A stretch of 64,000 nt of DNA from Arbacia lixula (Eukaryota; Echinodermata; Echinoidea; Arbacioida; Arbaciidae): the NCBI GenBank assembly GCA_963669155.1, contig CAVLGW020000018.1:1-64000 (forward strand), written 5' to 3'. The notes under the pieces were generated by a model. The model did no database searches. It was not told where the DNA came from and was given only the letters and a program-made list of their open reading frames with translations. Below, piece by piece: positions 7,801 to 37,575 of this stretch. The number at the start of each line of letters is the position of its first letter. Position 1 is the stretch's first letter. Position numbers and translations under genes: made by a program.

Positions 7801-8136
7801 TTTCAAATTATTTTTTAGACGAATTATTTCCTCTTTCATTTGCTTAACATACTCTACGTTTGTGCAAAGACTATTATTGAATTTCCAATAAGATCCCTTT
7901 TTACTTTTTTCTGCATCAGTTCCAGTATCATAAAGAGACAAAAATATTGCTGAATGATCGGGAGCTAAAGAGGATATTATGTCACACTTTGTAACCAAAC
8001 CTTGTATATTTTCAGACATAAGCCAATAGTCTAAACGACTTTGCATAAATGGATTTTGTTTGGTATATGTGTACTGTTTTTTCAGTCGATTTCTTTCTCT
8101 CCATATATCTATTAAATGTAGCTCTTCCATAACCAA
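4894..8136 (-). pseudogene. LINE ORF2, reverse transcriptase part
   Basis: An open frame of 1,080 codons. Its start carries the end of the endonuclease domain: SRLDYWLMS and the APDHSAIF signature. Reverse transcriptase blocks follow in order: SPGNDGLTVEFF, NYRPISLLNIDYKILSKVLA, DQIGFMNGRTIGEAIR, the catalytic AIDFQKAFDSVSHDF, RRGVRQGDPLSPYLF, the YADD box in QVMYADDMTLF, and KILGVFF. The C-terminal part holds HLGGLKMMNF and a CSYC...H...C motif (LCSYCKREEETYRHLFFQC). These features fit the L1/Tx1 group. The frame is intact to its stop, but it is out of phase with the endonuclease start, so the annotated ATG is internal to the ancestral ORF2. Target-primed reverse transcription is the family role. 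Confidence 0.92.
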
Positions 8137-8194
8137 ACTGACTTCTTTACTAAATCTATTACTAGTTTTTTTTACTTTACCATTGTAATCTAAG

Positions 8195-8665
8195 TCATCT
8201 CATAATCAAATTAAAGTCCCCTCCGATGATAACATGGTTTTTATCTTTATTTTTTTGTTTTAACCTTTTACATAAATCCTGAATCATATCTATTTGTTGC
8301 TTTTCTTTGTCCCTGGTCGGAAAATAAACATTACACAACACAATTCTTTTTCCTTCAATTTCACAGTCTATTATTATATAGCGTCCACTGTCATCCCTCT
8401 CTATCTCTATCAGTTTAAAATCTACGGAATTTTTAATCAAAATAAGTACCCCTTTACTGTGAGGAGAGCCATGGCTATAAAAACATGTCCCATCCCACAT
8501 TGAGCCCCATCTGTCCTCTATATCTTTTGTACTATATGTTTCCTGAAGAAATATGATATCACCCTTTTCTCTGCACCAAGAGAATATTATCCCCCTTTTA
8601 GCATTTTCTCTGATTCCTCTTACGTTAAGAGAACACAGTTTCCAATTTATCTTTCTACTCATCAT
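8195..8665 (-). pseudogene. LINE ORF2, endonuclease part (frame-broken)
   Basis: The amino-terminal part of ORF2 is an exonuclease/endonuclease/phosphatase-fold nuclease. I chose the ATG pair at 8665-8660 because the protein from there opens with KLCSLNVRG, the first catalytic strand. Downstream motifs are IIFLQETYS (metal-binding Glu), SHGSPHSKGVLILIK, LCNVYFPT and IIGGDFNLI (catalytic Asp and Asn). The frame then terminates at 8195, while endonuclease-like sequence continues in another frame toward 8136. A single-base indel near 8195 therefore explains the break. The short 8655-8948 frame upstream overlaps it and has no recognisable ORF1 features. Confidence 0.88.
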
Positions 8666-8949
8666 TGTGCAGGTGGTAAAGCCAAACAAAACATGGTGCT
8701 TCCATAGGAAGAGCCAGACGTGCAGCAACCAAGAATCTAACCATAATGTTATGAATTTGATTTCGATCATGAGTTTTATCACAATAAGAACTGATATAAA
8801 ATCCTGTGTTTTTGTTGTTTATGTATTCCACTTTTTTTCTTTCCACGATTCCCATTACCCCCACACAAGTAGAACATCCCACCCAGTCTGACATGAATCT
8901 ACTACCAAGAGTAAATTCATCCTTGTCGACAAGAGATGGGAAAAGCATG

Positions 8950-9790
8950 ACTTCGATTTAAGGGACCCTTCTCCTCCTTAAAAAAAATTAGAATAAGAAA
9001 AAAGAAAAATGAATAATTTTGAATAAAAAAAAAAAATAAAAAAAAATTAGATATATCAAATATACATATGTCATACATATATATATATATACACACATAT
9101 ATATACATATATACTTATACACATACTGACATACATATACATACACATATATAAAAGCACATTAACTAAAGTTAAACTCCCATTCACATTGAACCCTTGT
9201 ATACTTTTTATACACAGAATGGGAACACCAAAACACCCCTGGTTAATGGAATGTATGATTCTGATATAGAATAGGGAAGCAAAAACAAAATCCACCAAAA
9301 TCAGAAGATGAACTAAGCTACCGAACTCCGAAAGCCCTGCCCCCGTCTGGCGTCCGGAGACCAGCCCAACCCGCGCCCCCATGAAGAGCAAGAAAAGAAT
9401 AAAACTGACGATGCCGCATCCCCACAAAACGAAACCTTAACGTTTTTTTGTTTTTGTTTTTTTTTTCTCTCCTGAAGGGAGAGAAAAGGGAAAGTCGTGG
9501 CGCCACACCGTCGGCCTACCCGCCTCGCATCCATGACAACACGCACAAAACTACTCAACAGAAACATGCCGGAAATGCAAATCCCCCTTCCATTCTCCCA
9601 CGTTCAAGCACATTTTCTCTTATTTCTAACTATTCCCACTTGCCATTGTCTTATTTCTAACAAAACAAAACAAAATATTGAAAAAAATCTAAGCATCCTG
9701 AAGGATGAACTATCATATCCATTGCTTTCTTTTATCTGACTCCAATCTTGGTCCATTTATTTCAGTGCCTAATAGTATAGGCTCTGAGAA
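8950..9790. other. Low-complexity and unassigned sequence upstream of LINE
   Basis: A-rich sequence (about 8975-9050) and TA/CA dinucleotide sequence (about 9060-9150) are followed by a more GC-rich stretch near 9330-9540 with overlapping open frames on both strands. I recognise no domain in any frame. It could be LINE 5' sequence or ordinary intergenic DNA. Confidence 0.4.
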
Positions 9791-9799
9791 AATAAGGGG

Positions 9800-10130
9800 G
9801 AAATAGAAAGGCATGCTAGAATACTATTAATAAAAAAAACCATTTTCAATTCTGAACTATCTATAGTTCAGAAGAATGTCATTATTATTATGTAAAAGAA
9901 AAAGAAAACTGGTAGTGGGTTCTGGAAAAAAAAAAAAAAAAAAAAAAGATCCACGCCAGAAAGGCATGCTAAAATAATATTAACAGTGACCTTTTTAATT
10001 CTGACCTACCAGTAGTTCAGAATGTCATTAAAACTATTCATTATGTAAGACATACCATTCTGAAAACCATCTGTAGTTCAGAGGAATGTCTTTCAGAATC
10101 TTCATTATATAACAAAACAAACCCTTATGT
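9800..10130. repeat. Short diverged tandem repeat
   Basis: The phrase around TAGTTCAGAAGAATGTCATT recurs three times (near 9860, 10010 and 10075), each after a variant of AATTCTGA. The first two copies also share an upstream GGCATGCTA motif. It directly precedes the CpG-rich start region of the SET gene. Confidence 0.6.
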
Positions 10131-10169
10131 TAAAATGCCGGAAAATGCTTCACAAATTATCCCATCTTA

Positions 10170-10352
10170 TAAGAATACGTGTACGTGTACTATACTGTAT
10201 CGATCATATGCGCATGTACAATCGGCGCACGTGTGCACAATGCATAATTTATGCAGCGCTATAGCGCGTATCGTATTGTACCTCAACTAGTCCCCGTGCT
10301 CGCACAGGTGATTGAAACTGAGATTCGGGATCTTCATTTTCTGCCTATTCAG
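10170..10352 (+). promoter_or_regulatory. Probable promoter and non-coding first exon of the SET-recombinase gene
   Basis: A CpG-rich patch (many CGCG/GCGC and CACGTG-like words) stands out from AT-rich surroundings. It is followed by a good splice donor, CAG|GTAAAA, with the exon ending at 10352. The first coding exon at 10872 opens with an acceptor (TTTTCAG), so an untranslated exon must lie upstream, and this is the best candidate. No cDNA evidence is available to me; the transcription start is not defined. Confidence 0.4.
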
Positions 10353-10582
10353 GTAAAATATTATATATTTCAAACATAATTGAATAGATCTAAACGTGGG
10401 AACACTTAGGCCTAATTGATTCTAGATCTAGATCTTAGACTAAGTAAGGATAATGATAAGCCGATGTCTGGCGCTAGTTCATAAGTCAGTGTATCCATTA
10501 ATTCCATATCTTTGCCTTGTATAGCCTATCATTAGGGCCTAGGCCTATGGCTTTGCCTTTGGCACTTATTTTATGAATTTGA

Positions 10583-10643
10583 ACCCTAAACCTAACCCTG
10601 ACCCTGACCCTAACCCTAACCCTGACCCTAACCCTTACCCTAG
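10583..10643. repeat. Interstitial telomere-like CCCTAA repeats
   Basis: About ten degenerate copies of CCCTAA, mixed with CCCTGA variants, in the first intron of the SET gene. They match the TTAGGG-type telomere repeat of many animals and mark either an old break-repair event or simple repeat growth. Confidence 0.85.
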
Positions 10644-10871
10644 ACAATTTCTTTGCCGTTGAATTCGTCCAAAAAAGTGATTTCTAGGTCTGCATTAGCG
10701 CCCGTTTAGCTAGGCCCTAGCCTAGCCGGCCTAGCCCCGGGACTGCTAGGCGGCTAGCTAGCCGTGACTAGTCGCGTAGGCTGCCGTGGATACACTGAAC
10801 TAGCGCCCATCAATGCTGGTTGAGTCGTCACTTTAGTAATTAATATACACACGTTTCTATGGGATTTTCAG

Positions 10872-11009
10872 GTTGGCAACATAACCGCACGAGACAGTCA
10901 ATGAGGCAGTCAAGAAGGAGAGAAACTCAAGCAGATCGGGCAAGGCGATTTATAGAGGAAGGGTCAGATCAGGATGGCTTTGAAGCCAGGCACATCAATG
11001 ACTATATTG
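10872..11009 (+). CDS. SET gene coding exon 1
   Basis: This exon follows acceptor TTTTCAG and ends before donor GTGAGT at 11010. I chose the ATG at 10901 as start because it is the first in frame and gives a basic leader, MRQSRRRETQADRARRF. The exon leads directly into the SET fold (HINDYIG, then RGVF in exon 2). Intron phase is 1. Bases 10872-10900 would be 5' UTR. Confidence 0.8.
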
Positions 11010-14000
11010 GTGAGTTGTATTCAGTTTAACTTTAAGTCACTGATGATCATGAAGGTTCCAAACATTCACATTATCTACATTGAATGCAAAATTACTTAAT
11101 TTTTTCAACTCTTTTGGAAAGCTTAGACTGTGTACAATTTTTTCAACACACAAGCTAAACTGCACAATGCAGCGCGAAGTGTCCGTGGTGGCTGGAAGTT
11201 GGCTGCCGCGAGGCCAATTTCGACAGATTTCTAGTGAAATTTTGGATTTTCTCCGCGCGTACGGGTTTCTTCCCGTGCGTGCGTCTATGGAGTTATGTAT
11301 GTTAAAGCGTATACAAATGACATGTAGTTTTATTTATTTATTTTTACTTTTAAAGTTGTAGATTCTAAATGTAATACATTTACATTGTTAGTATGGAACT
11401 TATTCTTGTCATGTAAGATGAGGGGAACCAGAATAGAATCAATCGGACATTCACAGAAAAATCTGCCAGATATTCCTTCCGATTCTGTGTAGTAGCCATG
11501 GCATTAGCACAAGCACATATGCGGTTAGCCCCGGGGACAGCTCGGGGGACAGTTCAAGTTCAAACTTGAACTTGAACTTGAGATCTGAGAGTGGAGGGCC
11601 CTTCCCCCCCCCCCCCCCCCCCCACCCAGTTTTTTCAGCCTTCAAAATACCCCAGCCTTTTCAGGATTAAAACTGGTCTCTATTTTTGGTAAATATCAGA
11701 AAAGTATACATTTTCACTAAAATTTAATTTCATAGCCAAATGAGATGAAAGAATGTATATAATGCAGTGGATACTGAATGAAAACCCATAGATACATGTA
11801 TGTGTGGGTGTAGTATGTACATGTACATGTATGTATTTTACAATCAAAATGTCAAGATTTAGTATCGTCCCCAGAAAACATTGTCAATGCAGCATCACAC
11901 ACTGCTTGCATGCACACGTAAAGCCTTGATGGGTAAATCCACAATGTGCCCACATTTGCAACTTGAAACAGACAATCCCATTATTGATTATCATCATTAT
12001 AAAATCCATCTTTTTTCCAATAAAAAATATGTGAATTGTCCATCGTTTCCACATTAAAAATAGTGCTGTGGTATGGACATGTAATTATCCAGCTTTTCTC
12101 CTTTTCCTTTTTTATTTTAATCTAGAAACCCACAGGTCCATTCATTTCGCCACCATGTGTAGCATCCTCAACATCACCACTTCCACTCCCACCCCTTTAT
12201 GTGCTTCCTTTTCAGTCTTCATTCACATCCCTCTCTTGTCCAATTGATTTTTCTTCCCATACACCTCCTCCCACTCCAACCTGTTGCAGTTATTATTCTT
12301 CTGCTTCCTTACCTTCATTACCTTCCTTACCTCCATTTACCCCAGCTAATTCACTTGAAGTTCTTCCACCCACAACTTCAATTTCTCCTTCTCCATCCAT
12401 TTCTTCATTTCTTCCTTCCATTTCTTCTTCCCTTTCTTTTTCTTCTCCTTCTTTCTCATCTCATTTTCCTACTCCTCTTCCCACTTCTCCTTCTTTCTCA
12501 TCTCATTTTCCTACCCCTCTTCCCACTTCTTCTTCATCACTTCCTGCTTCCCCTTCCTCTACTCCTACTTCTCTCCCTGTTCATCCTCTCCAATCTACTA
12601 CTCCATTTCTAACCCATTCCAGGCCCTCATCAGCTCCCAGTACTCTTCCTCCCTTTTTCCGTAATATCCTGTATTTGTTTCTTGCTTTATTTCTTCTTCT
12701 TCTTTTATTGTTCATTGTGCTTGTGATTTGTTTTTATGTAATGTCATGAGGGGTGGGGAGGGGGAAGGCAACATTGACATTCACTCTTATATTTGTAAGT
12801 TATTAACTTATTGAGCATTTAGAAGTCTTTCTAATACACTTTATTGAGGGTAGTGGGATGTCTCGTTCAGGGTTAGGGTTATACGTTTCTTGAAATATTT
12901 GCCCCAAATATCATAGCATCAACATTGTCTTTTATTATATGATTTTTCCAGATTACCAGATAACTAATTGGGTTATGAGGTACGTGTAGCCTTTGATTTG
13001 TAAATTGTATGTTCAAGCTGCTTTCTACTAAAAATGTATGCTCTTTTATTGTTACAAATTGAATGAAAAGAGAAAAATTATTTTGCTCCAGAAGGAAGAA
13101 ATGCTATGTTTTGGAAAATAAATTTGAGTTTAAAAATGGGGGTCTTCTGCATGAGCTCTACATAATAAATGTATATATATACCCACCACAGTAATATTTT
13201 AACATTAGTGTTTAATATTAGTGTCTTTTGTTTGTCCGTAGGGCGTGGAGTCTTCACCATGCGAACATTTTCTGCGGGAGATTTCCTTCTGCATTATAGA
13301 GGGGAGTGCATCACAGCAAAGGAAGGGGAAAAAAGGGAAGACTCATACTCTCCAGAAGCAGGAAGCTTCCTTTTCTTTTGTGGAAAAAATGTGTGGTATG
13401 TACAAAATGAACCCTTTTTGTATGCATTTGCTCACCGTATTGCGTAACGTAGGTGGTTGCCGGAGGCATTAGGGAATTTTCGATTTAGGTCGATGTGCCT
13501 CCGGAACAATCGAGGCTGAGAAGCAAAGAATATGGAAGCTTTTGACAAACAATTCTAATAATGAAGGTGTACAGTACATCACCTTAGGTGACGCTCAAAG
13601 CTCTTGGTTGAGAGCTTGAAATTTATGCCTCGTCTCAGCCGGCCAGTCGATTGCTTTTGTAGCAAGGAAAGCTTATGGCATCTCAAGTGCATTGCAGAAA
13701 CCACCATTTCATTGTAATTACCTGTATTTGTCAAAAGCTTCCTTTCTTCACATACATGTACATGTATGCATGTACCTATCTCAACCTCGTTCAGGTACAT
13801 ACACATTATACCTACCCAAATCAGAATCTTCTTTTGAGTTTTCCTGTCATCTGTCCGTCTCGTTTTGGTTCTCGCGATAAGATCATGAACTGTTTGCCGG
13901 ATCAATTTCAAACTAATTATATCATGTATGCATAGGAGTAACAATTAATAATCTAGTAAGTTTTTTGGATATATCCACTCCAGCTCAAAGGAATTGGCAT

Positions 14001-17000
14001 AGGGAAAGGGAAAGGGAAGAAGGGGAAGGAGCCGCAGTTTTAAACCGCGGTATATTTTGTCGAGTTCAGCATAAAACATGATGCTTTTTAGGCTAAAGCA
14101 TCGTGTTTCATGCTGAACTGGAAAAAATATACCACGGTTTAAAACTGCGGCTCCTTCCCTTTCTTCCCTTTCCCTTTCCGTATGCCAATTCCTTTGAGCT
14201 GGAGTGTATATGTATATAATCAAGATCAATGTTTAACAGTCATGGAGTTCATACATAAAAATATATCTTTTCGCTATAACTACACTGAGAACACTTACTT
14301 TGAGATATCACATTCAAACTCGGATCATGTATGTATGCATATATAGGAGTGCCAATGATCTGATTACTTTTGGGAGTATCGAGGTCAAAGGTTACAGAGA
14401 TAACTATACATGTAGAAATATCACTGAAGGTGATTATAATACCCCCGCCCCGCAAAACATGCTTTTCCACCAGTTTTGGCATATGGCGTTACTATGGCAA
14501 CGCACAATCCACCATTGTCAAAAAATGTGTGTTGCACATTTACATATCTAGGCCAACATCTGTACCAACTTTCATTTGAAATGCTTTGTTTTCTTCAAAT
14601 TTAAGAAAAATGTGCTGTTATGCCGTTCCATGGCAACACACTTTCTGCTAGTCTCAAGAAATGTGTCTTGCACATCTACACCCCAAGACAAATATTTGTG
14701 CTGAATTCTATGAGAATCGGTCAAAAACTGAGGAAGAAGGCCTAAATGTTGAGTTCACTTAATTATTTTCTGTAATTATAAATTCAGGTTTGATTGACTA
14801 TTTTACACTTAATTTTGTAATTAAGAATTGGAAATTGAAACATTTTGTAAAGTTCTGTTTATAAAGAGAAAAGTGAAGGTATGACATCAAGTCACTTAAT
14901 GAATATTCATATCAACTGTTAAAGGACTGTTCCACAAAGAAAATGTGACAAAGTGTATCTTTTAAGATATAACAATTGCGGAGGCATATGTAGTTCATTC
15001 ATTCGTACAGCATTGTTAAATAGCATCAGACATATGTACTTGTATACGTGTACAATATGTATGTAAATTACCTTATGATCTCTCTAAATCTTGCTGATAT
15101 TTTAACCACGTACTATATAATGAGGACAAATGTCATTAAGCTTATTAGGCATGTTATCAAAAGTCAGCTAGGCCCATTTGGAATGCAGCTTTCAGTATCT
15201 TACATGTACCTGGTGCATTGTTCCAAGAAAGGTACTGGGAAGTGGGTTAATACACATTTTACTGACCACTCTTTTGGCTTGTGCTTGGAATGATTTAATT
15301 TCTATTTCCTCTCCATTTTATTCATATTTCAGCATTGATGCTACACATTCTGATGGTCTAGGGCGTCTTGTGAATGATGGGGTAGGAAAGGGTGCCAATG
15401 CCTTCATGAAACACTTACCTATTGGGACTAAGAATAAAACAATACTCTGCCTTTTCGCAAAAAGAGATATAGCTGTAGGGGAAGAGTTACGTTATGACTA
15501 TGGCGTTTCTGATTTGCCGTGGCGAAGTGAATCAAAGTCTAAAGGCTGCTTTCATCAGCAAAAGAAGAACAGAAGAGAAGACAAACTGAGAAGAGATGAT
15601 GGGAAAAAAGATGAGGGAATGGCAAAACAAAATGAATGTTTTGCAAGCTCTGATGTAAACTACATGCAAGAATTGTCAGATTCTGATCATCAGCCTGGAA
15701 GCACACAGGAAAGTGACTTGAGAAAGGAGAACCCAAGCAGAGAAGAAGAACTGAGAAGAGATAGCCTGAACAATGATAAGCGAATGACAAAACTAAATGA
15801 TTGTTTCCAAAGCTCTGATGTAAACTACATGCAAGAATTGTCAGATTCTGATCATCAGCCTGGAAGCACACAGGAAAGTGACTTGAGAAAGGAGAACCCA
15901 AGCAGAGAAGAAGAACTGAGAAGAGATAGCCTGAACAATGATGAGCAAATGACAAAACTAAATGAATGTTTCCAAAGCACACAGGAAAGTGACTTGAGAA
16001 AGGAGAACCCAAGCAGAGAAGAAGAACTGAGAAGAGATAGCCTGAACAATGATGAGCAAATGACAAAACTAAATGAATGTTTCCAAAGCTCTGATGTAAA
16101 CTACATGCAAGAATTGTCAGATTCTGATCATCAGCCTGGAAGCACACAGGAAAGTGACTTGAGAAAGGAGAACCCAAGCAGAGAAGAAGAACTGAGAAGA
16201 GATAGCCTGAACAATGATAAGCGTATGACAAAACAAAATGATTGTTTCCAAAGCACACAGGAAAGTGACTTGAGAAAGGAGAACCCAAGCAGAGAAGAAG
16301 AACTGAGAAGAGATAGCCTAAACAATGATGAGCAAATGACAAAACTAAATGATTGTTTCCAAAGCACAAAGGAAAGTGACTTGCAAAAGGATAACACTGA
16401 TAGAGGAGATGAATAGAATACAGATGATGGCACAGTGCTCAGTTCAGAGGTAGATGAACACCAGTATTCTGATTCAGATTCTGATTCAGAATATGTACCA
16501 GACTCTACAGACTCTGATGCTAGTGAATGTTTCAGTGTGCTTCCTGCTTTGAGAGCTAGACAAATGCATCCACAAATGTCAAATGCAGAGGAAGATGAAA
16601 ACAAAAAGACAAATGAGATTTCAAAAGCCAGTAATGCTGTAACAAGTTTTGCCCCCGGGCAAAAAGGAGGGAAACAGGATGGGAGTAACAAACTGCCTAG
16701 AACTGGAATAAGCCAAAGCCTGCACTGCTTGGATAAACATGCCCCATACCAGACAGGCAAAGATCCTAAAAGACTATGTCCGTTTTGTGACAACCTCTGC
16801 ACCAAGTTATCTCGGCATATTAGTACAGTACACAAAGACAGAGAAGATGTACAGGAAGCATTGAGATTACCAGACAAAGAACGTATCAAGAGATTAGCAG
16901 AATTCAAGAAAGAAGGAATATTGAAATTCAATAAGAAGATCTCTGGGGAATCTGACCCACATTTTCAACAGGAGAAGAAGTCTGCTAATAAGTGCAAACT

Positions 17001-20000
17001 TGTCATGTGTGGACAATGCAAGGGTTTTTACAATTCTGGCTACTTGGGCAGACACAGAAAAGAATGTGCTAAAGAATTGTGTGCAACAAATCTTGCAGTT
17101 CCCGCTTCTGTCATAAAAGACATGGACACTGACTCTCAAAACAATTCTTTCTTCACAGACATTCTTTGTCTGTTTAGGGATGATGACATAGGGCATTTGT
17201 GTCGCACAGATAACATGATAGTAACAGTTGGACAAAGACTTTGGGAAAAGGAGAGGACAAAAATGGACAAAAGAAATGAAGTCAAAAAAGGAGTTATGAC
17301 TGCCATGAGAAGATTGGGCTCATTGTATGTATATTTCCAGAGTACAGAAAATGAGCTTGGTCCATATGATACGTCACATGGATATTCATTGGACATGTTC
17401 ACACGCAGGAACTTTTCTCATCTAAAGGAGGCAATCAAGTCATATTGTCAGAAGGAAAGTGGTGATGTGAAGCATGGGTTGAAATCCTCTCTGTTCTATC
17501 TTCTCAAGAAGTCCTGTAAAATCATGAAAGGGACATTCCTGATACAAGATAAGGATGAATTAGCTGATGCCATTGATAAATTCACAGCGGTTCTCGATTT
17601 GAATCATGACTTCGTCTTTGGCGATGCCACTTATGCAGTGAATAAGAGCCGAAATGAAAAACTCCGCAAACCAGAGAAGCTTCCTCTGGAAGAAGACGTT
17701 CAACGTGTCCGGGAATATGCACATGGAAGAATGGAAGAGCTCATGAAAGAAGTGTATCATGTTTACGAAGGTCAACACTTTGTTGAACTTCGTGATCTGG
17801 TGGTTAGCAGACTTACACTATACAACGCCCGCAGGGGTGGTGAACCATGCAGACTCCATATCAAGGAATGGAGGGATGGTGAAAGTGATTCGTGGATTAA
17901 TGATCATGTTGCTAAACAACTCAACCAAGCTGAAAAGGCTGTCATGAGTAACTTCAAAATCACATACCAGAGTGGAAAGGGTCGGCACCTAGTTCCAGTG
18001 CTCATTCCGAAGGACTGCTTTAAACCCCTGCAGGTGCTATCAGATTGCGAAACTCGTGCCAGAGCAGGGGTTAAAGAAGGGAATGATTATCTCTTTCCTT
18101 CAACGCAGGGATCTTCATCTCATGTTTCGGGGTGGCATGCTGTACAAAATGTATGCAAACAGGTTCCAGACCTGGAGAGATTAGACCTTATCTCAGCAAC
18201 CAAAAATAGGCATAGAATTAGCACGATATATGCATCAATGGATGTCAAGCCATCAGATAGGAAGTACTTCTACACCCATATGGGCCACAGTGAAGAGATG
18301 AACACAAACACGTATCAGGCTCCACTTGCTGTGATGGAGGTCTTGAAGGTTGGAACAGCTTTGAGCAACATTGATAGTAAGTTCTCTGCTGTAATTGCAT
18401 GCAATTTGCTATCGATAAATGCATGGGAAATAATTTCAATATTGCTAAATATGTTACTCATTGCGGATAAATTGCTAGTGATAATCGTTTGTCTCGCAAT
18501 GTGTGGTCAACGGAATCTAAAAAGATCACATCGTTTTTTGCGCCGCTGCAACACTTCGTCAGGTGTGATACAAAATTGTAGTAAGTAGGGGTTTATATGT
18601 ACCCTTTGGTCAGTGCAGCGTACTAACCGAAACTCGCTCATAAACGGTCCAATACTATTGGCCGGCGCACCCGGATGCTCGACCAAACAATAGGCCGCTG
18701 ATTATGGCTCGCATTGTCGGGCGGCAATTACGGGTAATCAACCAGTCAAAGGGCCGCTAGTAGTTTCACATTGTTGGGCGGTAACAATGGTGAGCTACAA
18801 GCAATCAACGAGCTGCTATGGTGTGTTGATACGAGGTGGTCGGGGACTGTCATGGCGGCGCTGCACTGACCAAAGGGTATAAACCCCTACTTACTACAAT
18901 TTTGTATCACACCTGACGAAGTGTTGCAGCGGCGCACGAAACGTCGTGATCGTTTTAGATTCCGTTGACCATACATTGCGAGACAAAAGATTATCACTAG
19001 CAATTTCAATATTGACGATACTTGACTAAATTGAACAATCAAATAAGTTGCATGTGTATAATCAAGTGAAGTCACTTGAAAAACAAAGGAAAATAAACAT
19101 ATGATAACTGGAAAAAAAAATCTTATTTTTTTTCAATAACACAATTTTGTTTTAATGCACTTCAACTTCTGAACAACTCTAGCAGTGTTTTAACTCCTTC
19201 ACTATATATATTTATGCTCTGTTAGTATTCCATTATGCTTATGCTTGAACATATAATATGAAAGGATATTTAAAACTCTGATGCTTAAATGAAATTTGTA
19301 TTTGATTTTTTGAAAGGTGGTCAGCATATGGAGTCCACACGGCAGGAAAACGTGTCTGATGATGAAGGGAGCACTAGAAGAGGTACAATTTTTTCTTGTT
19401 GCCTGTTTGGAGATTTAAACCATGGACACATTGGTTGCTCTCATAAGGGATTTTTACACTGGCAAAATTGTCCTTAGTCCCGTACTATCGGTGCATGGCC
19501 GATAGTACCATACAATATCCTTAGCCCGCTTTCTGTTTACACTTTTGTTTTCATGAAATTAGGCTATCCCCACCGATGATTTCCCGTACTAGCTTGCAAT
19601 TGCCCTGCAAAAAAGCAGCTTGGTTGAGCACCCCAATTGCAGTGCTATATAACCCTGCAATTGCGGTGCCAATAAGCATGCCAGTGTAAACAAAACAAAA
19701 TTAGTCCGGGGTTAATTAAGCTGCGCAAGAAAAGTCTGGAAACCACTGACCATGCATGCAATCAGAAACAGGATATTATGGTGCATGTGTGCAGGTACAG
19801 TGCATAGCATATCGCATCATTTGGATAGTAAATACAAGTGTTAACAGCCATTGTTATTTCTCGGGACAAGGACTTGGTACGGTATTTATTAATGAGTTTA
19901 AATTGAAAATATATTAGTGGGATTAACGATAGTACCAGACTCAGGAAAGTATGTGGTTAATTAGGAAACACAAGTGTAAAACGAGCTATAGAACTGCTCA

Positions 20001-23000
20001 ACATTTGCATGGTTTTGTACAAAAATTAAAACATTTTCTCAGATATTCTACTGATCTTGAAACATATTTAGGTGAAGAATGCTTCCTGAACATACCACAG
20101 CACTTACAGGCATGAAGGTTAAAGAATATCTGACAATGAAGAAAAGTAATATATGCTAGCTGTGATTGTCAGCATTATCAATGTGAAATGAATTTTTAAA
20201 CTCCAATGCTTTTAGGATTAATGCTATTTTTATTTGATTTTACTTATAAATTAAAGGTGGTCAGCATTTGGAGTCTGCTCAACAGGAAAGGATGTCTGAT
20301 GATGAAGGGAGCACGAGTAGAGGTATACATTTTTTTTGTTTACCTTTTTGGAGATTTAAATTATTGACACATATATGGGTAATTGCTCTCATAGAATTGC
20401 TCAACATTGGTTTTGTACAAAAACAATAAAGCTTTTATATTTTCTCAGATATTCTACAGATCTTGAAACATATTTTGTTGAATAATGTTTTCCAAACATA
20501 CCACAGGCATTAAGGTAAAGAAAATGTGACAATGAAGAGTGGGAAAAGTTGCATGTGATTGTGAGGATTAATTATATACTTATGTGAAATGAATTTTTAA
20601 ACTCCAATGCTTTTAGGATTAATGCTATTTTCATTTGATTTTACTTACAAATTAAAGGTGGTCAGCATTTGGAGTCTGCTCAGCATGAAAGGATGTCTGA
20701 TGATGAAGGGAGCACGAGTAGAGGTACCTTTTTTGTTTTTGTTGCCTGTTTGGAGATTTAACCCTCAGTAGCCCAGGCTTATTTGAAACTATAGATTTCG
20801 GCCACAGAGCGAGGAAAAATGAAATTTGGCACGTACATAGAACATATCAAGAAACATTTTTATTTAAAAAAAAAAAAAAATTGTAACTATATGCAAATTT
20901 GTGTTAATTATGTGCATACATTACATTTTGATTAATATGTAAAATTATATTTATGTGAAAATATGAATTTCGCAAAACTATTGCATGCTGAAATGATTAT
21001 GAATATTTATAAGCTTTTTACCCAACAAATTTGGCATTGATGACTCAATTAATTGCTTGCCCATTTGCATTGTGCTCATTGTTTTACCTCAATATTAGGC
21101 AGACACATATTTACACCACGTTGGAAACATGCATGCATGCATATAGCAAAACAGTCCAATATTTAACCAGTTTAATTTTGCACAGTTTATCCAAATATAG
21201 GCCAACAATTATTTACCACATGTGGGGTAAATTTATGTAGCAAATAGTTGTACATGTACAAAGTTTACCAAATTTGTACCCAATTTTGATTTACCCGATA
21301 CAGGTTACCCAATGTTTCTAAGAGTCTAGCTAATTATTATTTGCCCTCAGTGTACCTATTGGAAGAATAATGCGATATGGCGTAGGCATATACCAGTCGC
21401 CATAGCAACATTTCTTGTTGAAAGATGTATGAGAGGAATATGCTATTAGTAAGTTGACTAACATGTACCTTTCTTTCATTTTTTGTTTTAAAGACGACTT
21501 AACTAATGCAGACAGAACAGATCGGAGACGAGGGAGAGGAGGTCAGCCAGCTACATGTGCCTCCAAAAGTAAGCAATGAAATCGGCAAATTTGTTGTGGT
21601 TTTTACACCTATGATATAGCGAAATTTATTTGAAATTATTAACAAATTAGGTTAAATATCTAAGTGTGATTTTTTTTTATTATACGTATGTACTTGACTA
21701 TCTGAATTGAAATATACATCAGTGAAATTTGTAACATTACAATGAACATCCAGGTCATAATTAAGTCTATTTTGTACATCCTGTTTTAGTTTTATGACTT
21801 GTGACAGGTTGGAAAAGGAATTAATTATTAGCTACATTTTGCTCAGGTTTGGTGTTACTTAGCTTGATTTTCAATTAAAGTTATGTTTTCTTGATCTGTC
21901 CTTGTTAATTTTTGGAAACATGATTGAATTTTTAGCTCATCTGGCCCAAAAAAATATAAGAGACTATAATTTGTCTTAGATTGTTTATATTGCTAAAACT
22001 GCTAATTCATGAGTTTCCAACTTACAATAAGTCATAACATTACAATTATAGTTTGCATATGCAGGTGCATATTCATTTCTTTGACTGAGATAGTTTCCAT
22101 CGCACACTATGTTCACCTCCTTAATTACTGCAAGCTTCCACATTTTTTCAGTAATTATGGCCATGCCTTAGACTTAGTTTTGCTATCATCTTCTACCCTG
22201 AGTCATCTTTGTTCCCTGAATTTGTATGAAATATTTATGACATGGCCTTACCATGCCTAAATATAGCACCATGTACTTCCTTTGTGTTCATGGGTTGTGT
22301 TTATGTTCAGTATTCATTTAATCTTTGCTCCCAATTAACACCTTATGTTTTCTATATTGGTTCGATCCTGGATCCTCTTTCCTAGTTTCTGTCTTGAGAT
22401 TGAATTTTGCATTATGTGGTGTACAGCGTACACCACTCGAGAGAACTCGAGTTTCCCTGCAAGGCAGCAGGAAAAAAATTAAATCAGTTTTCAGTTTGGA
22501 TATTGAGCTGTGCACATCTTTTTGATTTTGTGTTAATTGCTTGCTTTCCAAGGAGTTGGTATTTTGAAGGATAGTTTTTTTCAGTACTATACCCTAGCTA
22601 TTATAATTAAATTCATTTTACAGTGTGTCTTACTGTCTGCATGTTGTTGTTTTTTGTTACATTCTGTGGTAGTTGATGATATTGATACAAGATATTATTC
22701 CAGCATCATATAGCTCTCAGCAAGTTCATATGTTCTCGATTAAGTTAAGCAGTATGATCCCTCTCCTGGTGAGTCCTCCGACGCAGGAAATAAAGCAATT
22801 AATTGAAGGTGAAGAAGAACTTTGTGTACTTGTTGCATGCCGACCTAGGGCATGATGTAGGGCACGTACACACAGGCTGTGGCGGAGATGGGGGGAATTT
22901 GATAATTGTCCCAACCCAACTAACCAACATTTTCCTAAAATATGATTAAAGGGAATATATTGTACTGGGAAGACAATAAAACCCTCAAAAGTTGATCGTG

Positions 23001-24240
23001 AGCAATCTTCTTGCCAATGGTCTTAAATTCATGTAATACATGAATTAAAGACCATAGCAATCTTCTTGCCAATGGTCTTAAATTCATGTAATACATGAAT
23101 TAAAGACCATTGGCAAGAAGATTGCTCACGATCACCTTTTGAGGGTTTTTTTGTCTTCCCATTAAAATATATTCCCTTTAAACTAAAACATTTTCTTTGT
23201 CATCAATTTCTGCATTATAGAGCGCAAATATGTTCAGTGGACAGAGAGTGAGAGCAAAGTTATCCTGTCACACTTTGGGCATTACATCCGTGGGGAGGCA
23301 CCAAAAAGACTTCCAGGTAATCATACTGAGAATTATGCTCTATGCATCAGTAGTTTTAGAAAAAAAGGAGAAAATTTGAAAGATTATCCCTACCTTTAGC
23401 ATTTACTAAACTACATGTAAAAGGGGGGGGGGGGGGGGGTAGATGAGTATTTCTCCATACCATATAAATTCTTCTTTAACTCTATTAGCATTCACCTGTA
23501 ACTCTCTCCTGTTGTTTACCTGGAAAATTTTAAGATATATATGTTGTGTATCAAATGAAAGTTGAAGATTTTTTAATAAGAATTCTTATGTATAACTCAT
23601 ATGGTATACTGTCATTTGTATCATTTTTGCATAATTTCCTTGTGGCCATTCCTTCAAAACTTAAGCACTGTTTTGTTGCTTTTTCAGTAGGAGTTGATCT
23701 ACATGTATATATACATGTATGCACAAAGATTCTTATATCAACAAAATCTGACCAGATTCAACAGAGAAAAGGAGTGCATAATATATTATATTGGATGGTT
23801 ATACATGTATATTTGAAAGGGATACCAGAGAAGAATATTGCACAAGTTAGCCTGAGGGTCAATAAAGTTTAATCATATTAATTATTCTTTGTGCGTGAAG
23901 TTATAAAATGATATTTTGTCTCTGGAACGCTACTTTTGATTCCAATTTCATGATTGCATGTACATTAAACATTCATGATCAAGCGCATGGTGAAAACTGA
24001 TAGCTATTTTGAGGGCCATTAAAAAAAAAAAAAATCTTATTATATGAGAGAATGTATAACATAACATAGCATTTTTTTAAACATTTTTAACCAGGTATCC
24101 AAGAGCTAAAGGACTTCGTTGACCGGAAGATTGTGCAGCATGACTGCTTGACTATCAAGACAAAAATTTTCAATGAACAGAACAAAAGACGACGTCTTGA
24201 AAAGCAAAGATCTGTTGATATGGGAATTATGGAGATTTAA
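10901..24240 (+). CDS. SET-domain / Crypton-type tyrosine recombinase / Myb-like fusion gene (one in-frame stop)
   Basis: My model joins nine coding exons: 10901-11009, 13242-13395, 15333-18376, 19317-19382, 20257-20322, 20658-20723, 21494-21568, 23221-23316 and 24095-24240. Every intron is GT-AG, and the phases carry through to a TAA at 24238, giving 1,274 codons including the stop. Order: KMT5A/PR-Set7-like SET domain (residues ~37-148), acidic repeats (193-448), C2H2 (570-588) and C2HC (647-666) fingers, tyrosine recombinase core (~900-1090), three 22-residue repeat exons, an AT-hook-like stretch (~1180) and a Myb-like segment (~1195-1245). A TAG at 16414-16416 (codon 449) lies in frame between SET and recombinase halves. 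Related SET plus recombinase-like proteins are, to my recollection, present as uncharacterised predictions in other aquatic animals; I cannot search. Methylation and DNA binding are inferred roles. Confidence 0.85.
11010..13241 (+). other. SET gene intron with C run and polypyrimidine tract
   Basis: No coding exon is supported. It contains a 20-base C run at 11604-11623 and a roughly 550-base CCTT/TTCTCC-rich tract at about 12190-12660. That tract opens spurious proline/serine/leucine-rich frames on the plus strand, including a near-duplicate 36-base phrase around TTCTTTCTCATCTCATTTTC. No branch or regulatory element can be assigned with confidence. Confidence 0.6.
13242..13395 (+). CDS. SET gene exon 2, N-terminal half of SET domain
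   Basis: Acceptor CCGTAG and donor GTATGT bound the exon. It encodes RGVFTMRTFSAGDFLLHYRG and continues to FFCGKNV, matching the first strands of KMT5A/PR-Set7 SET domains (the GxGVF turn that contacts S-adenosylmethionine, then GDF and Y-x-G). It must be read with exon 3: the split cysteine codon TG|C joins them. Confidence 0.9.
13974..14207. mobile_element. Foldback element (234-bp hairpin) in SET gene intron
   Basis: Two arms of roughly 115 bases pair almost completely around a centre near 14090. The outer ends read CACTCCAGCTCAAAGGAATT and its complement, and inner segments include GGAGCCGCAGTTTTAAACCG. It has no coding capacity. In the pre-mRNA of the SET gene it would form a long double-stranded stem between the two SET-domain exons. 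Confidence 0.88.
15333..18376 (+). CDS. SET gene exon 3: SET C-half, acidic repeats, zinc fingers, tyrosine recombinase
   Basis: A 3,044-bp exon from acceptor ATTTCAG to donor GTAAGT. It starts with CIDATHSDGLGRLVND and ELRYDYG, the pseudoknot and catalytic-tyrosine motifs of SET domains. After the repeats come CPFCDNLCTKLSRHISTVH and CGQCKGFYNSGYLGRHRKEC. The recombinase core has Arg at residue 921/922 (NARRGGEP), Lys 970 (GKGRHLVPV), Arg 1047 (TKNRHRIST, with Thr in the usual His place), His 1073 (HMGHS) and Tyr 1082 (NTYQAP). The spacing Arg-His-Tyr fits phage-integrase/Crypton enzymes, which cut DNA through a phosphotyrosine. The frame past the donor is intron sequence. Confidence 0.88.
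15646..16413 (+). repeat. In-frame coding repeat, 165-bp and 111-bp units
   Basis: A tandem array inside exon 3. Long units of 55 residues begin SSDVNYMQELSDSDHQPG and continue TQESDLRKENPSREEELRR to about NDCFQ. Short units of 37 residues lack the first 18. The order is long, long, short, long, short, then a partial. The units are nearly identical at DNA level, so expansion is recent. The encoded region is charged, probably disordered and rich in acidic/serine motifs. Antisense frames here are artefacts of the repeat. Confidence 0.93.
16414..16416 (+). other. In-frame TAG stop inside the SET-recombinase gene
   Basis: The frame on both sides of this codon is the same, so it is a single stop and not a frameshift. 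It lies just after the coding repeat. The next in-frame ATG is at 16564. Possibilities: an allele-specific nonsense change, a sequencing error, splicing that removes it (GTAAAC donors occur within the long repeat units and CAG acceptors follow at about 16421 and 16434), readthrough, or two separate proteins. Confidence 0.9.
18469..19013. mobile_element. Foldback element (~545 bp) with ~155-bp inverted arms
   Basis: The arms 18469-18625 and 18858-19013 are inverted copies, sharing CAACACTTCGTCAGGTGTGA, AAGTAGGGGTTTATA and CCTTTGGTCAGTGCAG. The centre is a CG-rich ~230-base spacer. It lies in the intron after exon 3; the open frame that runs from exon 3 into this element is not coding. It has no transposase. 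Confidence 0.88.
19317..19382 (+). CDS. SET gene exon 4 (first of three duplicated exons)
   Basis: A 66-bp symmetric phase-1 exon with acceptor TGAAAG and donor GTACAA. It encodes GQHMESTRQENVSDDEGST, an acidic serine-rich segment similar to exons 5 and 6 but the most diverged of the three. Confidence 0.75.
19453..19690. mobile_element. Small MITE with 12-bp terminal inverted repeats
   Basis: Perfect inverted ends TTTACACTGGCA (19453-19464) and its complement (19679-19690) enclose 238 bp. Inside is a 10-bp-stem hairpin, GTACTATCGG and complement, at about 19482-19508, and AATTGC-rich sequence. It lies in the intron between exons 4 and 5 of the SET gene. I could not fix a target duplication. 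Confidence 0.6.
20257..20322 (+). CDS. SET gene exon 5 (second duplicated exon)
   Basis: A 66-bp phase-1 symmetric exon with acceptor TTAAAG and donor GTATAC. It encodes GQHLESAQQERMSDDEGSTS. Both the exon and about 200 bases of upstream intron recur at exon 6, with only about two exon differences, so exons 5 and 6 arose by a recent ~401-bp tandem duplication. Confidence 0.8.
20658..20723 (+). CDS. SET gene exon 6 (third duplicated exon)
   Basis: A 66-bp phase-1 symmetric exon with acceptor TTAAAG and donor GTACCT. It encodes GQHLESAQHERMSDDEGSTS. Because each copy is symmetric, any number can be included or skipped without breaking the frame. Confidence 0.8.
20760..21490 (+). other. SET gene intron, no feature seen
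   Basis: AT-rich intron sequence with an A run near 20866-20880 and short ATGCATGCATGCAT-type motifs near 21130. I see no exon, RNA gene or clear transposon. Confidence 0.5.
21494..21568 (+). CDS. SET gene exon 7, AT-hook-like
   Basis: A 75-bp exon with acceptor TTTAAAG and donor GTAAGC. It encodes DDLTNADRTDRRRGRGGQPA and a short continuation. The RRRGRGG core resembles an AT-hook (a short minor-groove DNA-binding motif), although the canonical RGRP is not exact. Confidence 0.7.
21569..22940 (+). other. SET gene intron, no feature seen
   Basis: No exon or recognisable mobile element. Two small palindromes lie near 22425-22450 (GTGTACAGCGTACAC and CTCGAGAGAACTCGAG). Confidence 0.5.
22950..23177. 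mobile_element. TTAA-flanked foldback MITE, family A copy 2
   Basis: Same family as 1345-1709. It begins AGGGAATATATTGTACTGGG after TTAA (22946-22949) and ends with the complement before TTAA (23178-23181). An internal hairpin around ATTCATGTAATACATGAAT with the GGTCTTAAATTCATG phrase is duplicated, so it is rearranged relative to copy 1. It lies in the SET gene intron just before exon 8. Confidence 0.87.
23221..23316 (+). CDS. SET gene exon 8, Myb-like segment
   Basis: A 96-bp exon with acceptor TTATAG and donor GTAATC. It encodes KYVQWTESESKVILSHFGHY and IRGEAPKRLP. The Trp-x-x-x-E start, hydrophobic helix positions and the following P-x-x...F-V pattern in exon 9 resemble the C-terminal Myb/SANT-like domain that I associate with this SET-recombinase protein group. 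The assignment is by pattern, not by search. Confidence 0.75.
24095..24240 (+). CDS. SET gene final exon 9
   Basis: Acceptor AACCAG opens an exon encoding GIQELKDFVDRKIVQHD, then a basic helix (NEQNKRRRLEKQR), ending MGIMEI and TAA at 24238-24240. The basic run could act as a nuclear localisation signal. No clear AATAAA lies close behind the stop, so the 3' UTR length is not defined. Confidence 0.78.
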
Positions 24241-24244
24241 AACA

Positions 24245-24760
24245 AAACTTTGCATGGTCATCTCGGTAAGCCCATGGACTCCGTGTCTAGCAAAGTCTCG
24301 GACATCCTGACCGACCCAGCGGAATGTGCGCCCGCGGTCAATCACCAGCACGGCAGCAGCACCAGCAGCAACGCTAGCGACCAGAGCGCCAGCTCGGGCA
24401 ACTCCCAGGGCACACTGGTCTACCGGCCCGTGGGAGGCGTCCCCGAATTCCAGACCGCCTCCATGCAAACAGCCGGGAGGGAAGGGGGCATCGCTGCCGG
24501 ACCAGTCCCCTCCGCGGGCGTCGAGGAGAAGCACGGGAACAGGGCCGGCCGGTGGCGGATGGCGGGGTACACACGTGGTCGCGAATGCTGGCAGATGGGC
24601 ACCCAACTCCGTCGTGGAGATCATGCAGCCATGATGCACTCAACGACATGCCGATGGGGAAGCCCAGCGAGGGAAGCTTTGCAGTCTCGCAGTTTGCTCT
24701 CCAGGGGTTTGCTGTCCAGGCGATGCACTATGACAATTTTAGGTTAGCATCGCTTGCTGC
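24245..24760 (+). pseudogene. GC-rich coding-like island, unrecognised, possible retrocopy
   Basis: About 500 bases of distinctly GC-rich, intronless sequence sit immediately after the SET gene stop in AT-rich surroundings. One plus-strand frame (from 24250) gives PMDSVSSKVSDILTDPAE and a Ser/Gln-rich stretch. A different frame is more protein-like downstream (SEGSFAVSQFALQGFAVQAM near 24665-24725). That suggests an indel within an old coding sequence. I do not recognise the parent. It may be a processed pseudogene fragment or the GC-rich 3' UTR of the SET gene. Open frames exist on both strands, so coding status is unproven. Confidence 0.35.
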
Positions 24761-24769
24761 CAGACTAGT

Positions 24770-27355
24770 ATGTCCCATAATCACAGTGTCCTACAGTTTT
24801 TTTTTTTTATATTTAAGTAAACAGTGTCCTACAGTTGCATATACTACATGTATGTGCACATTTCCAGTTTCCATTGAAAATATACACGATGTTTTACTTG
24901 TGAATAGTTGGGATTTTTTTTTATCATGATCAAGCCAAATTATTTCAATGGAAACCAGAAGTGTGGATACTGCAAATGTTGTGTGATGTAGCACTTTCTA
25001 CATTGGAGCAACATGTGATAGGGAGAATTGGTTAGCTATTTGGTGATAACATTTGTTGACTACTTCCTATGTCTTCTACACATAATTCAGTATTTTCTCA
25101 GAGAGATGTTTTGCTTGTTATCGTATATATTTTGTGAAGAAAGCACACTTGCATTCCATACATGTATCATTTCAAGTTTAGCTAAAGGTAATGTGGAAAT
25201 CTTAATTGAGATGCTTACACCTTCTATATGAGTTCTCTGCAAAATGACGTCATTAGCTATGGCAGTGTAATATAAAATTGGATATAGCAAAACTGCCTCA
25301 TTCCTTGTATTTATTTTCCAAATTACCAACTATTATGGTCAATCTTTCCCCGATATTTAATGGTGGGGAAATATGCACCAATCAAATAAGAGAAAAGAAT
25401 ATCCAATAACAGGATAGTAGTATAACTCAAACTTAGATATCCATGCAGTGAAGTAGTTCTTTTGCAGGAATACTGTTCCGTTAGTTGATTTTTTCTTTAA
25501 ACTTACCTGAGATGACTATATTTTATAGTTACAATGAATATGCAAACAGTGAGTAGAGTTTTGATGTGTTTATTATAATAATGTGTACTTTTGTAAAGGA
25601 TATACTATCAGAACAGAAATCTTATGGTCTTTGATCCATTTTTTTTCCTTTCACTTTTAGTTCTGTCCAAAAATACGTTTTAATATAACCAACTTGGTTA
25701 AAGGTCACATACGTGTATTACTGTACTTTGTCAAAAACAGAGTGATTTCAAAATGAGTGATGCTTATGAGTTCTGTTGAATGTGCAAATTTCTTTTGCAT
25801 ATGATGTGATGATATTCAAAGCGAAATCCTTAAATTATCGCATGCTCTTTGAAATGTTAAAGATATATGTTATGTTAACCCTATATCCACTGGGGGGGGG
25901 GGGGGGGGATCAAATTTTCAGTGAAGTGTCAAGCATTATTTGAAACAAGTTTTGTGAAAATCTGACGAGGTCATGTGACATTTCGTAGGCGCATTTCAGC
26001 CCAAAATTTGACAAAAACCTGCATTTTCCATAGAACATTTGCATACAAAACAGCACACATTTGATAAATTGCTCTGAAACGGCCTTTTCAATATTCTACG
26101 ACAATTACAAGCTGTTAGGTGACTTGAATCATTAAATTTTGAATTATATTAGAAAAAAAATAAAAACAATGAATCACATAAGAAATAAAAACTACATACA
26201 TATAATGAATTGTTTTTGATTTGCAAACTTTACAATATAATCTTGTTGACAATGCTTCTAGGATACTATCTGCAAATTGGCTTTCAATTGAAAGAAATTT
26301 TGATAGATTTGTGAAATTGGTGAAATGTGATGCATCTCATTTGCATACATTTTACTCAATGAAATTAAGAATGTTGGGACACGAAAAAAAAACATGCAGT
26401 GATGTTCTTGACATGTGTCTTCATGTGTTAGCAATTTTTGCGCCGATCAGACGTTCTACAACCAAGATCTCGGGGGGCCGGGGGCACATTGACGACCCCC
26501 CCCCCCCCCCCCCTAGTAAAAACCTGCTCTGAAATAGCCCAGTGGAATTAGGGTTTAAGAAGACAAAGTGTCGGCCTTACAATTGCCAGTGTTCTAGACT
26601 GAGTAGATGAAACAAATCTTCTTAAAAGTTTGTTTGCCAAGCATAAAGGAAGAGCTGTTCTGTGTTTTGTTCTGTTTTGTTTTGTTTTTTCATTTTCATT
26701 TTCATTTTCATTCTCATTCCAGGTAATCTTCAAATATTTTGTAACATAACTTTTGACTTCAAATTATTTTGAATTAACTATTTAAAAAGAATAAGACATA
26801 CATGTATTTCAGTTTTAGTTTTAGTTTTTGAAAGTTTGTTGTTATCAACAGAAGTGTGATTTTAACAAGAATATCAAATAAACAATTTAACATTCATACA
26901 TATAGTACATGTTGCATGTAGTACATTTCGAGCTTAGAATATGATTAAAGAATACATCCATGCATATCCGTAGTATAGGACTGTTCTGTTGCATAGGCGT
27001 ATGAACAAATGTAATTTATTATGTCCAGGGGGGGGGGGGGGGGGGGCGGAACCCGCACGCACGCACGCGCGAAAATAGTCCGGCTAATGTACACCATGCG
27101 TCATTAGCTGCACGTCCTGCAATTGTACCCCAAGTATGGTGAAAAACAACAGCTGGACAAAGTTTTGAGCCTAAACAATGTATATCTCTTAAATAGCAAC
27201 TGACATTTTGGAGCTAAATTGCTATTTTTTACTGATGGTTAGCAAACACAATAAACCATAAAAACACCTGAAATAATTGTGGTGTTAAAGATATATCGTG
27301 ATAGTCCTGCTAAGGAACCATTTTTTCGTATGTCCAGCTAAGTTACCATATAGAG

Positions 27356-36666: not shown

Positions 36667-37446
36667 TTAAAAAAGCCCATTCGTAATTGACATCAATGTT
36701 GGATTATGGTTAAGCTGGTTGAAAATCCGGATATATTTGTTGGTCTCTTTTTCTTGTTCTTTGAGTTTACTTTCTTCTTCGCCATACTCCCTCCTTACAA
36801 TATTTTGCTGCCTTCTTTCCCGAATTTTGACAGCCCCATAACCTATCAGCCCAAACGCCACCATTGAAGCAACTTTAGCACCACGGCGACGTGTCACCAT
36901 CTCCTCTACTTTCTTTTCCTTATCGCTCTCGGACTTAGCCTTGATCTTCTGAGTGGCCGTTTCGATGTGGTCCACGTACTTTGCAGCTAACTCTGACATA
37001 GATTCTAAGTATGATGACTTCCCAGCTTGACGGACGTGAGGATCGAGGAAGGCTAACTCTTGCAAAATAAACATATGCACGGATGCAGCATCCATGAACA
37101 CTTTCTGAGCCAATGGTTCCGAGATGAGGTAATCTGACATCAAGGGCGGGATCAGGGTAAAGCCGATCTTATCATGCTGAGGCTTCAACATTTCAAAGAG
37201 CTCGAAGTTTGTGGCGCCTGCGTGTTTTCGAGGACTGTATACGGTATCCAACCAGGAGACTATGCCATGCACCTGGGATTGAGTGTGGGATATCCTGTCA
37301 TCTTTGAGAACGTGTACGAAATCTTCGATGCTAACACGATTTCCAAACACCATGTTCAGCAATTCGACTCCAACGCTGTTTAAGCCTTTCTCTAAAAGGT
37401 CTTTTCCAAAAGCGCCAAAAACCTCTGCCGCGGCTGAAGCTGCCAT
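36667..37446 (-). CDS. Small all-helical membrane-associated protein, Endotoxin_N-like pattern (tentative)
   Basis: A 259-residue protein. I chose the ATG at 37446 because codons upstream look like leader sequence containing a possible short intron. An Ala-rich start leads to a glycine/hydrophobic segment (residues ~14-35), then amphipathic helices including FVHVLKDDRI (43-52) and YVDHIETATQKI. The C-terminal part has a predicted membrane segment of about 17 residues (VASMVAFGLIGYGAVKI, ~192-208), a basic RERRQQ, and a charged coiled-coil-like tail. The helix pattern resembles the N-terminal helical domain of delta-endotoxin-type pore-forming proteins, without their other two domains. That resemblance is from memory of the family pattern, is weak and needs a profile search. 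It does not look transposon-derived, and I see no partner gene nearby. Confidence 0.6.
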   Translation of the reverse strand: MAASAAAEVFGAFGKDLLEKGLNSVGVELLNMVFGNRVSIEDFVHVLKDDRISHTQSQVHGIVSWLDTVYSPRKHAGATNFELFEMLKPQHDKIGFTLIPPLMSDYLISEPLAQKVFMDAASVHMFILQELAFLDPHVRQAGKSSYLESMSELAAKYVDHIETATQKIKAKSESDKEKKVEEMVTRRRGAKVASMVAFGLIGYGAVKIRERRQQNIVRREYGEEESKLKEQEKETNKYIRIFNQLNHNPTLMSITNGLF

Positions 37447-37575
37447 GTTTTTCACTATCTCTGTTAAAGTTAGGAATAATGTACTGTTTTGGACTTCAAA
37501 TGAATACAGCTGTGTAAGAGAGCTTACCGTCAGAGCAGAGAGCAAGGGAGCGAGTGATATGATTCATGGGAGAGA
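37447..37575 (-). promoter_or_regulatory. Probable 5' leader of the 36.7-kb gene with a short intron
   Basis: On the minus strand a good donor (GACG|GTAAGC at 37527) and an acceptor (TTTAACAG at 37461-37468) would remove a 67-bp intron and leave the ATG at 37446 as first start. If unspliced, the frame extends up to an ATG at 37545, adding 33 residues. Confidence 0.45.

Follow-up and report, generated by a model that had tools for sequence, protein, structure and literature searches.

A composite gene in Arbacia lixula

A stretch of 64,000 nucleotides (nt) of the genome of Arbacia lixula (assembly GCA_963669155.1, contig CAVLGW020000018.1, positions 1 to 64,000; hereafter the window) was analyzed. 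It was found that its forward strand carries a composite gene of nine exons, spanning positions 10901-24240 (about 13 kb), in which a single exon, read in one frame, holds both the second half of a KMT5A-type SET domain and a tyrosine recombinase (YR), with a TAG codon between them. At a probability of roughly 0.5, I read this locus as a host-type multi-exon gene that arose when a KMT5A-derived SET domain was joined to a transposon-derived unit of finger motifs and YR. A preliminary description of the locus had proposed nine exons with eight in-phase GT-AG junctions, and the joined chain bears this out: all eight junctions are GT-AG, the phase is kept at each, and the chain runs for 1,274 codons, counting the terminal TAA at 24238-24240. 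The eight donors agree with GTAAGT at 3 to 6 of the 6 positions. A structure of so many exons speaks for a host-type gene rather than for a compact transposon. The exons and the features inside them are as follows.

10901..11009, +, exon 1: ATG and N-terminal flank of the SET domain (KMT5A alignment ahead of the SET core; donor GTGAGT, in phase)
13242..13395, +, exon 2: first half of the SET domain, RGVF ... GKNV (Pfam SET profile 1-50; joined domain 1.9e-14)
15333..18376, +, exon 3, 3,044 nt: a single frame holding half of the SET domain, the repeats, the TAG, the finger motifs, and the YR
15333..15543, +, 5′ part of exon 3: second half of the SET domain, IDATHSDGLGRLVNDG ... YDYGVSDLPW, and a few more residues (Pfam SET profile 46-105; KMT5A alignment)
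15574..16395, +, charged linker, encoded by in-frame tandem repeats (units of 111 nt and 54 nt)
16414..16416, +, in-frame TAG, codon 449, parting the SET section from the recombinase section
16777..16833, +, finger-like motif CPFCDNLCTKLSRHISTVH, C-x2-C-x9-H-x4-H (pattern match)
17008..17067, +, finger-like motif CGQCKGFYNSGYLGRHRKEC of the C2HC type, C-x2-C-x11-H-x3-C (pattern match)
17686..18372, +, YR catalytic domain (R922 at 17833, K970 at 17977, R1047 at 18208, H1073 at 18286, Y1082 at 18313)
19317..19382, +, exon 4, the most divergent of three 66-nt exon copies
20257..20322, +, exon 5, a copy of exon 4
20658..20723, +, exon 6, a copy of exon 5 (64 of 66 positions identical)
21494..21568, +, exon 7, Arg/Gly-rich tail (placed by phase and splice sites only)
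23221..23316, +, exon 8, KRKYVQWTESESK..., the segment earlier called Myb-like (no profile support)
24095..24240, +, exon 9, C-terminus and TAA (placed by phase and splice site only)

The SET domain and the shared exon

Taken separately, the two SET halves give Pfam values of 2.4e-4 and 2.6e-4, each just short of the Pfam cut-off; joined through exons 1-3, they give 1.9e-14. Among the best 60 of 101 matches in a PDB search, 14 KMT5A/SETD8 sequences stand on top (6e-19 to 1.3e-16) and the next class is KMT2A (1.5e-10). The assignment to the KMT5A type in the preliminary description is thereby supported. The KMT5A alignment spans residues 7-146, which makes KMT5A (SETD8, PR-Set7) the best solved relative of this part, and it begins within exon 1. 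Since the joined form aligns from exon 1 onward, junctions 1 and 2 are supported. KMT5A monomethylates H4K20. The GRGV motif, the Asn of the NHS motif, and YDYG are kept. The present SET domain differs from KMT5A in having NDG for NHS and Ile for the Lys of KGRGV, as well as in the attached finger motifs and YR.

Does the linkage of the SET domain to the YR need splicing? This idea was rejected. The second half of the SET domain and the YR share exon 3 and its frame, so that their linkage is independent of any predicted splice. The coding frame of exon 3 contains 1 stop codon, against 108, 64, 45, 37, and 31 in the other five frames and about 69 expected from the base composition. Thus, the frame is coding in character.

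The tyrosine recombinase and the finger motifs

A profile comparison of the YR by hhalign gave a score of 30.5, which was reached by none of 300 shuffles (at most 22.1); the reversed sequence scored 14.0 and seven control open reading frames (ORFs) at most 17.7. R922, K970, R1047, H1073, and Y1082 are in register with XerD relatives, as the preliminary description had anticipated in listing R, K, R, H, and Y in this order. In an alignment of 44 sequences, R50, K98, R175, H176, G200, H201, and Y210 of the query sit in invariant columns, and the identity to the 43 aligned YRs is 13-24%. A regular expression for the YR matched 0 of 200,000 shuffles, a result that is only supportive because the pattern was written after the protein had been seen.

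A model of the YR was then guided by an alignment of 43 XerD-like viral proteins out of 71 stretches listed (predicted local distance difference test, pLDDT, 71.6; predicted template modelling score, pTM, 0.68). The predicted structure seems nearest to XerH, XerA, and Cre. Since the model was built from an alignment to YRs, its fold matches are partly circular and not independent evidence. A Foldseek search with it gave no match at E <= 0.001, the best being XerA at 1.7e-3. A single-sequence AlphaFold2 model of the YR region (423 amino acids) had a pLDDT of 38 and was not used. The likeness to XerD, XerH, XerA, and Cre thus lies in the catalytic fold, as modelled under that guidance, and in the residue register; the spacing from His to Tyr is 9 in both XerD and the present YR. 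The differences are a Thr in box II and the eukaryotic fusion context.

The C2H2/C2HC fingers of the preliminary description survive as two patterns in exon 3, but they have no Pfam profile match. A PDB sequence search with the finger region gave two matches, at 0.55 and 0.76, which is chance level.

Crypton is a plausible candidate label for the YR. Cryptons are known from a sea urchin, an acorn worm, medaka, a mollusc, insects, and a sea anemone (PMC3212892). Together with the R, K, R, H, and Y kept in register, this occurrence would suit a still-mobile Crypton-like YR transposon that has captured a SET exon. However, the gene has nine exons over 13 kb, and no second copy or paralogue lies within the 64-kb window. 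Animal Cryptons are described as having neither a C-terminal domain nor terminal repeats (PMC3212892), whereas the present model has six tail exons, of which exons 7-9 were placed by phase and splice sites only. A search for repeats of at least 40 nt in 9000-26000 found none bounding the gene; shorter terminal repeats and target duplications are outside the reach of this search. Because animal Cryptons are described without terminal repeats, the missing bounding repeats say little. A mobile element is in all highly doubtful, and the host-type gene is the better account of this structure.

The repeated linker and the tail exons

The charged linker consists of five 111-nt units (37 amino acids each) and three 54-nt units (18 amino acids each), every unit being in frame. 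Compared with their own consensus, the five long units show 8 nonsynonymous deviations and 1 synonymous deviation.

Exon 4 is 83% identical to exon 5 or 6 without gaps. When gaps are scored as differences, the identity of the flanks is 58-59% over the upstream 100 nt, 71% over the downstream 60 nt, and 42-48% further out. That the identity of exon 4 to exons 5 and 6 exceeds that of the flanks favors real exons. Between exons 5 and 6, the flanks are 81% (upstream 100 nt) and 61% (downstream 60 nt) identical by the same scoring. The ratios of nonsynonymous to synonymous changes are 7:4 for exons 4 and 5, 8:3 for exons 4 and 6, and 1:1 for exons 5 and 6.

The evidence for exons 7-9 consists of phase and splice sites. 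In 18377-24240, there are 45 open phase-1 candidate exons of 60-200 nt on the + strand and 56 on the - strand. The Myb-like tail of the preliminary description was not recovered: no Pfam family matched up to E 10, and the sole PDB match, a cilia protein at 0.89, is at chance level.

The TAG codon between the two halves

The preliminary description had taken the locus to encode one continuous SET-recombinase protein, overlooking the TAG at 16414-16416 in exon 3. With this codon in place, the present sequence encodes no uninterrupted fusion protein. Both domains do occur in one gene model, as had been claimed, but on this sequence their union in a single protein is blocked. The TAG lies beyond the SET domain and the tandem repeats, just past the last full unit, and ahead of the finger motifs and the YR. 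Apart from codon 449, every codon before the final TAA is open, and the model contains no frameshift.

For a neutral pseudogene, 188 nonsense mutations would be expected per substitution per site. With an assumed 0.1 indels per substitution, the probability of at most one disabling change is 0.35, 0.065, and 0.0014 at 0.5, 1, and 2% neutral divergence. From these odds, the gene is intact but for one change, or only just lost. In my view, the TAG does not represent the usual condition of the gene but a base error, a null allele, or a stop that unseen splicing bypasses. When sites are filtered loosely, 68 GT-AG pairs are able to skip the TAG in frame, a count that is uninformative.

Several observations weigh against a functional host gene of the kind proposed here. 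The first is the in-frame TAG at 16414 between the SET domain and the YR. The linker and the repeated tail exons show no sign of purifying selection. In the SET domain, the His of the NHS motif of KMT5A-type enzymes is replaced by Asp (LVNDG for LINHS). In the YR, the box-II His of the R-H-R-Y tetrad is missing, Thr1044 occupying the near-invariant His column. Because of these two replacements, either activity may be lost. Judged by its motifs, the SET domain is possibly an active methylase, though not assuredly so. Furthermore, the YR has no sequence support from Pfam, PHROG, or the PDB. No integrase family of Pfam or PHROG was listed, only DUF6273 at 0.088-0.17 (below the cut-off) and phrog_1090, of unknown function, at 0.18. 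The PDB sequence search with the YR ORF gave one match, at 0.5, which is chance level, and a search of viral contigs with the same ORF gave 3 pattern matches and 0 relatives.

If the TAG is fixed, the fusion gene at this locus, which may be one among several paralogues, would have died recently or be dying, and the sole possible product would be a SET-plus-linker fragment of 448 residues. The TAG itself and the missing signal of purifying selection in the repeat units and exons 4-6 point in this direction. However, one disabling change in 1,273 codons with no frameshift means that any loss of function was recent, and death would have to be very recent. I consider a dead copy rather unlikely, and a gene that is normally intact remains my preference.

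Alternatively, the locus may yield two proteins. The first, made of SET domain and linker, would end at 16416; the second, with the fingers and the YR, would have a separate transcript and begin at one of two internal ATGs, 16564 or 16576. The stop codon does fall between the domains, and both in-frame ATGs precede the finger motifs. On the other hand, the same frame continues on either side of the TAG within one 3-kb exon, and the 49 codons from the TAG to the first ATG are also open, which a non-coding spacer would not need. Two separate products are therefore quite improbable.

Relation to known systems

The closest analogue of the present host-type gene model is SETMAR, whose transposase is of the DDE type. 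In SETMAR, a SET methylase is joined to a transposon-derived DNA-binding enzyme, the Hsmar1 mariner transposase; the present gene model likewise pairs a SET domain with such an enzyme, here a tyrosine recombinase of presumed transposon origin. Unlike SETMAR, the present gene has half of its SET domain and the YR in one exon, a SET domain of the KMT5A type, finger motifs, a multi-exon tail, and an interrupting TAG. Of the single polypeptide of SETMAR, it has the common exon and frame, with the TAG at 16414 in between. The transposase part of SETMAR steers the methylase to remnants of transposon ends (PMC6326780). By analogy, the finger motifs and the YR fold may bind particular DNA, for instance repeats such as the ends of old transposons, and histone or non-histone lysines at the DNA so bound would be methylated by the SET domain.

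The Crypton-derived host genes form a second group for comparison; these are multi-exon animal genes that contain a Crypton-type YR or have been fused with one. These include KCTD1, ZMYM2/3/4, QRICH1, and WOC, with DUF3504, and bird ATF7IP, with a YR (PMC3212892). The domesticated YRs named DUF3504 have lost most of their catalytic residues (PMC3212892), whereas the present YR keeps most of them, namely R, K, R, H, and Y. Since the YR of bird ATF7IP may also have kept its activity (PMC3212892), this retention is not unique. According to one proposal, YRs derived from Cryptons serve as modules that bind DNA or proteins, many of them in transcriptional regulators (PMC3212892). I infer a transposon origin for the present finger/YR unit as well.

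In the open-access literature searched, which included parts of PMC3212892, PMC6326780, PMC12062965, PMC3537659, and PMC9945428, no description of a SET-YR fusion was found. The terms "SET domain" and "methyltransferase" are absent from the main text of PMC3212892. A male-specific SET-domain gene of gibel carp, setdm, is named by reference in PMC9945428. SETMAR is the only SET-transposase fusion that turned up in the literature searched. A second, independent fusion with another recombination chemistry would mean that the coupling of chromatin methylation to a DNA-targeting recombinase evolved more than once. With it, one could also test by what means domesticated recombinases are stopped from cutting.

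Predicted proteins of teleosts and invertebrates that are annotated as KMT5A-like and carry SET motifs of the GRLVND type seem to be of one family with the present gene, as do fingers of the form CxxCxGFY...RH...C before a YR. In that case, the fusion would be widespread in databases, though unnamed.

It is improbable, in my estimate, that the locus represents a working, catalytically competent SET-YR enzyme made as one protein, the TAG being absent from other alleles or spliced out. Such an enzyme would link the methylation of lysines to the chemistry of strand exchange and would thereby mark or silence the sites that it cuts or binds. It could represent an ancient animal family in which the SET half tames a domesticated recombinase.

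Surroundings of the gene

Three hairpins with arms of 110-129 nt, MITE-like (miniature inverted-repeat transposable element) in look, lie in introns at 13971-14211, 18469-19006, and 22946-23181. The second is just 3′ of the YR exon and has 129-nt arms, 95% complementary and 280 nt apart; the third has relatives at 1340-1714. The telomere-like hexamer AACCCT occurs about ten times at 10582-10642, some 260 bases 5′ of exon 1. Directly after the stop codon of the gene, 24241-24747 is GC-richer (about 48%) and contains an open frame of 168 amino acids without a Pfam match at E 0.01; this segment is possibly an inserted element or a long 3′ untranslated region.

No Rfam match was found in the window. 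Upstream of the gene, an L1-type element not of the long terminal repeat class occupies 4894-8818 on the - strand, with two frames overlapping by a few bases. It matches the endonuclease Exo_endo_phos (5e-10), the reverse transcriptase RVT_1 (3.1e-36), and zf-RVT (1.7e-6). For an open frame of 298 amino acids at 36667-37563 on the - strand, Pfam gave no match at E 0.01. The segment 43973-51379 contains direct duplications, each about 0.6-1.2 kb long and 96-98% identical, together with weak Pfam matches below the cut-off to RVT_1 (0.0053) and Exo_endo_phos_2 (0.00078). A further direct duplication of about 1.05 kb, with 84% identity, is found in 55934-58140.

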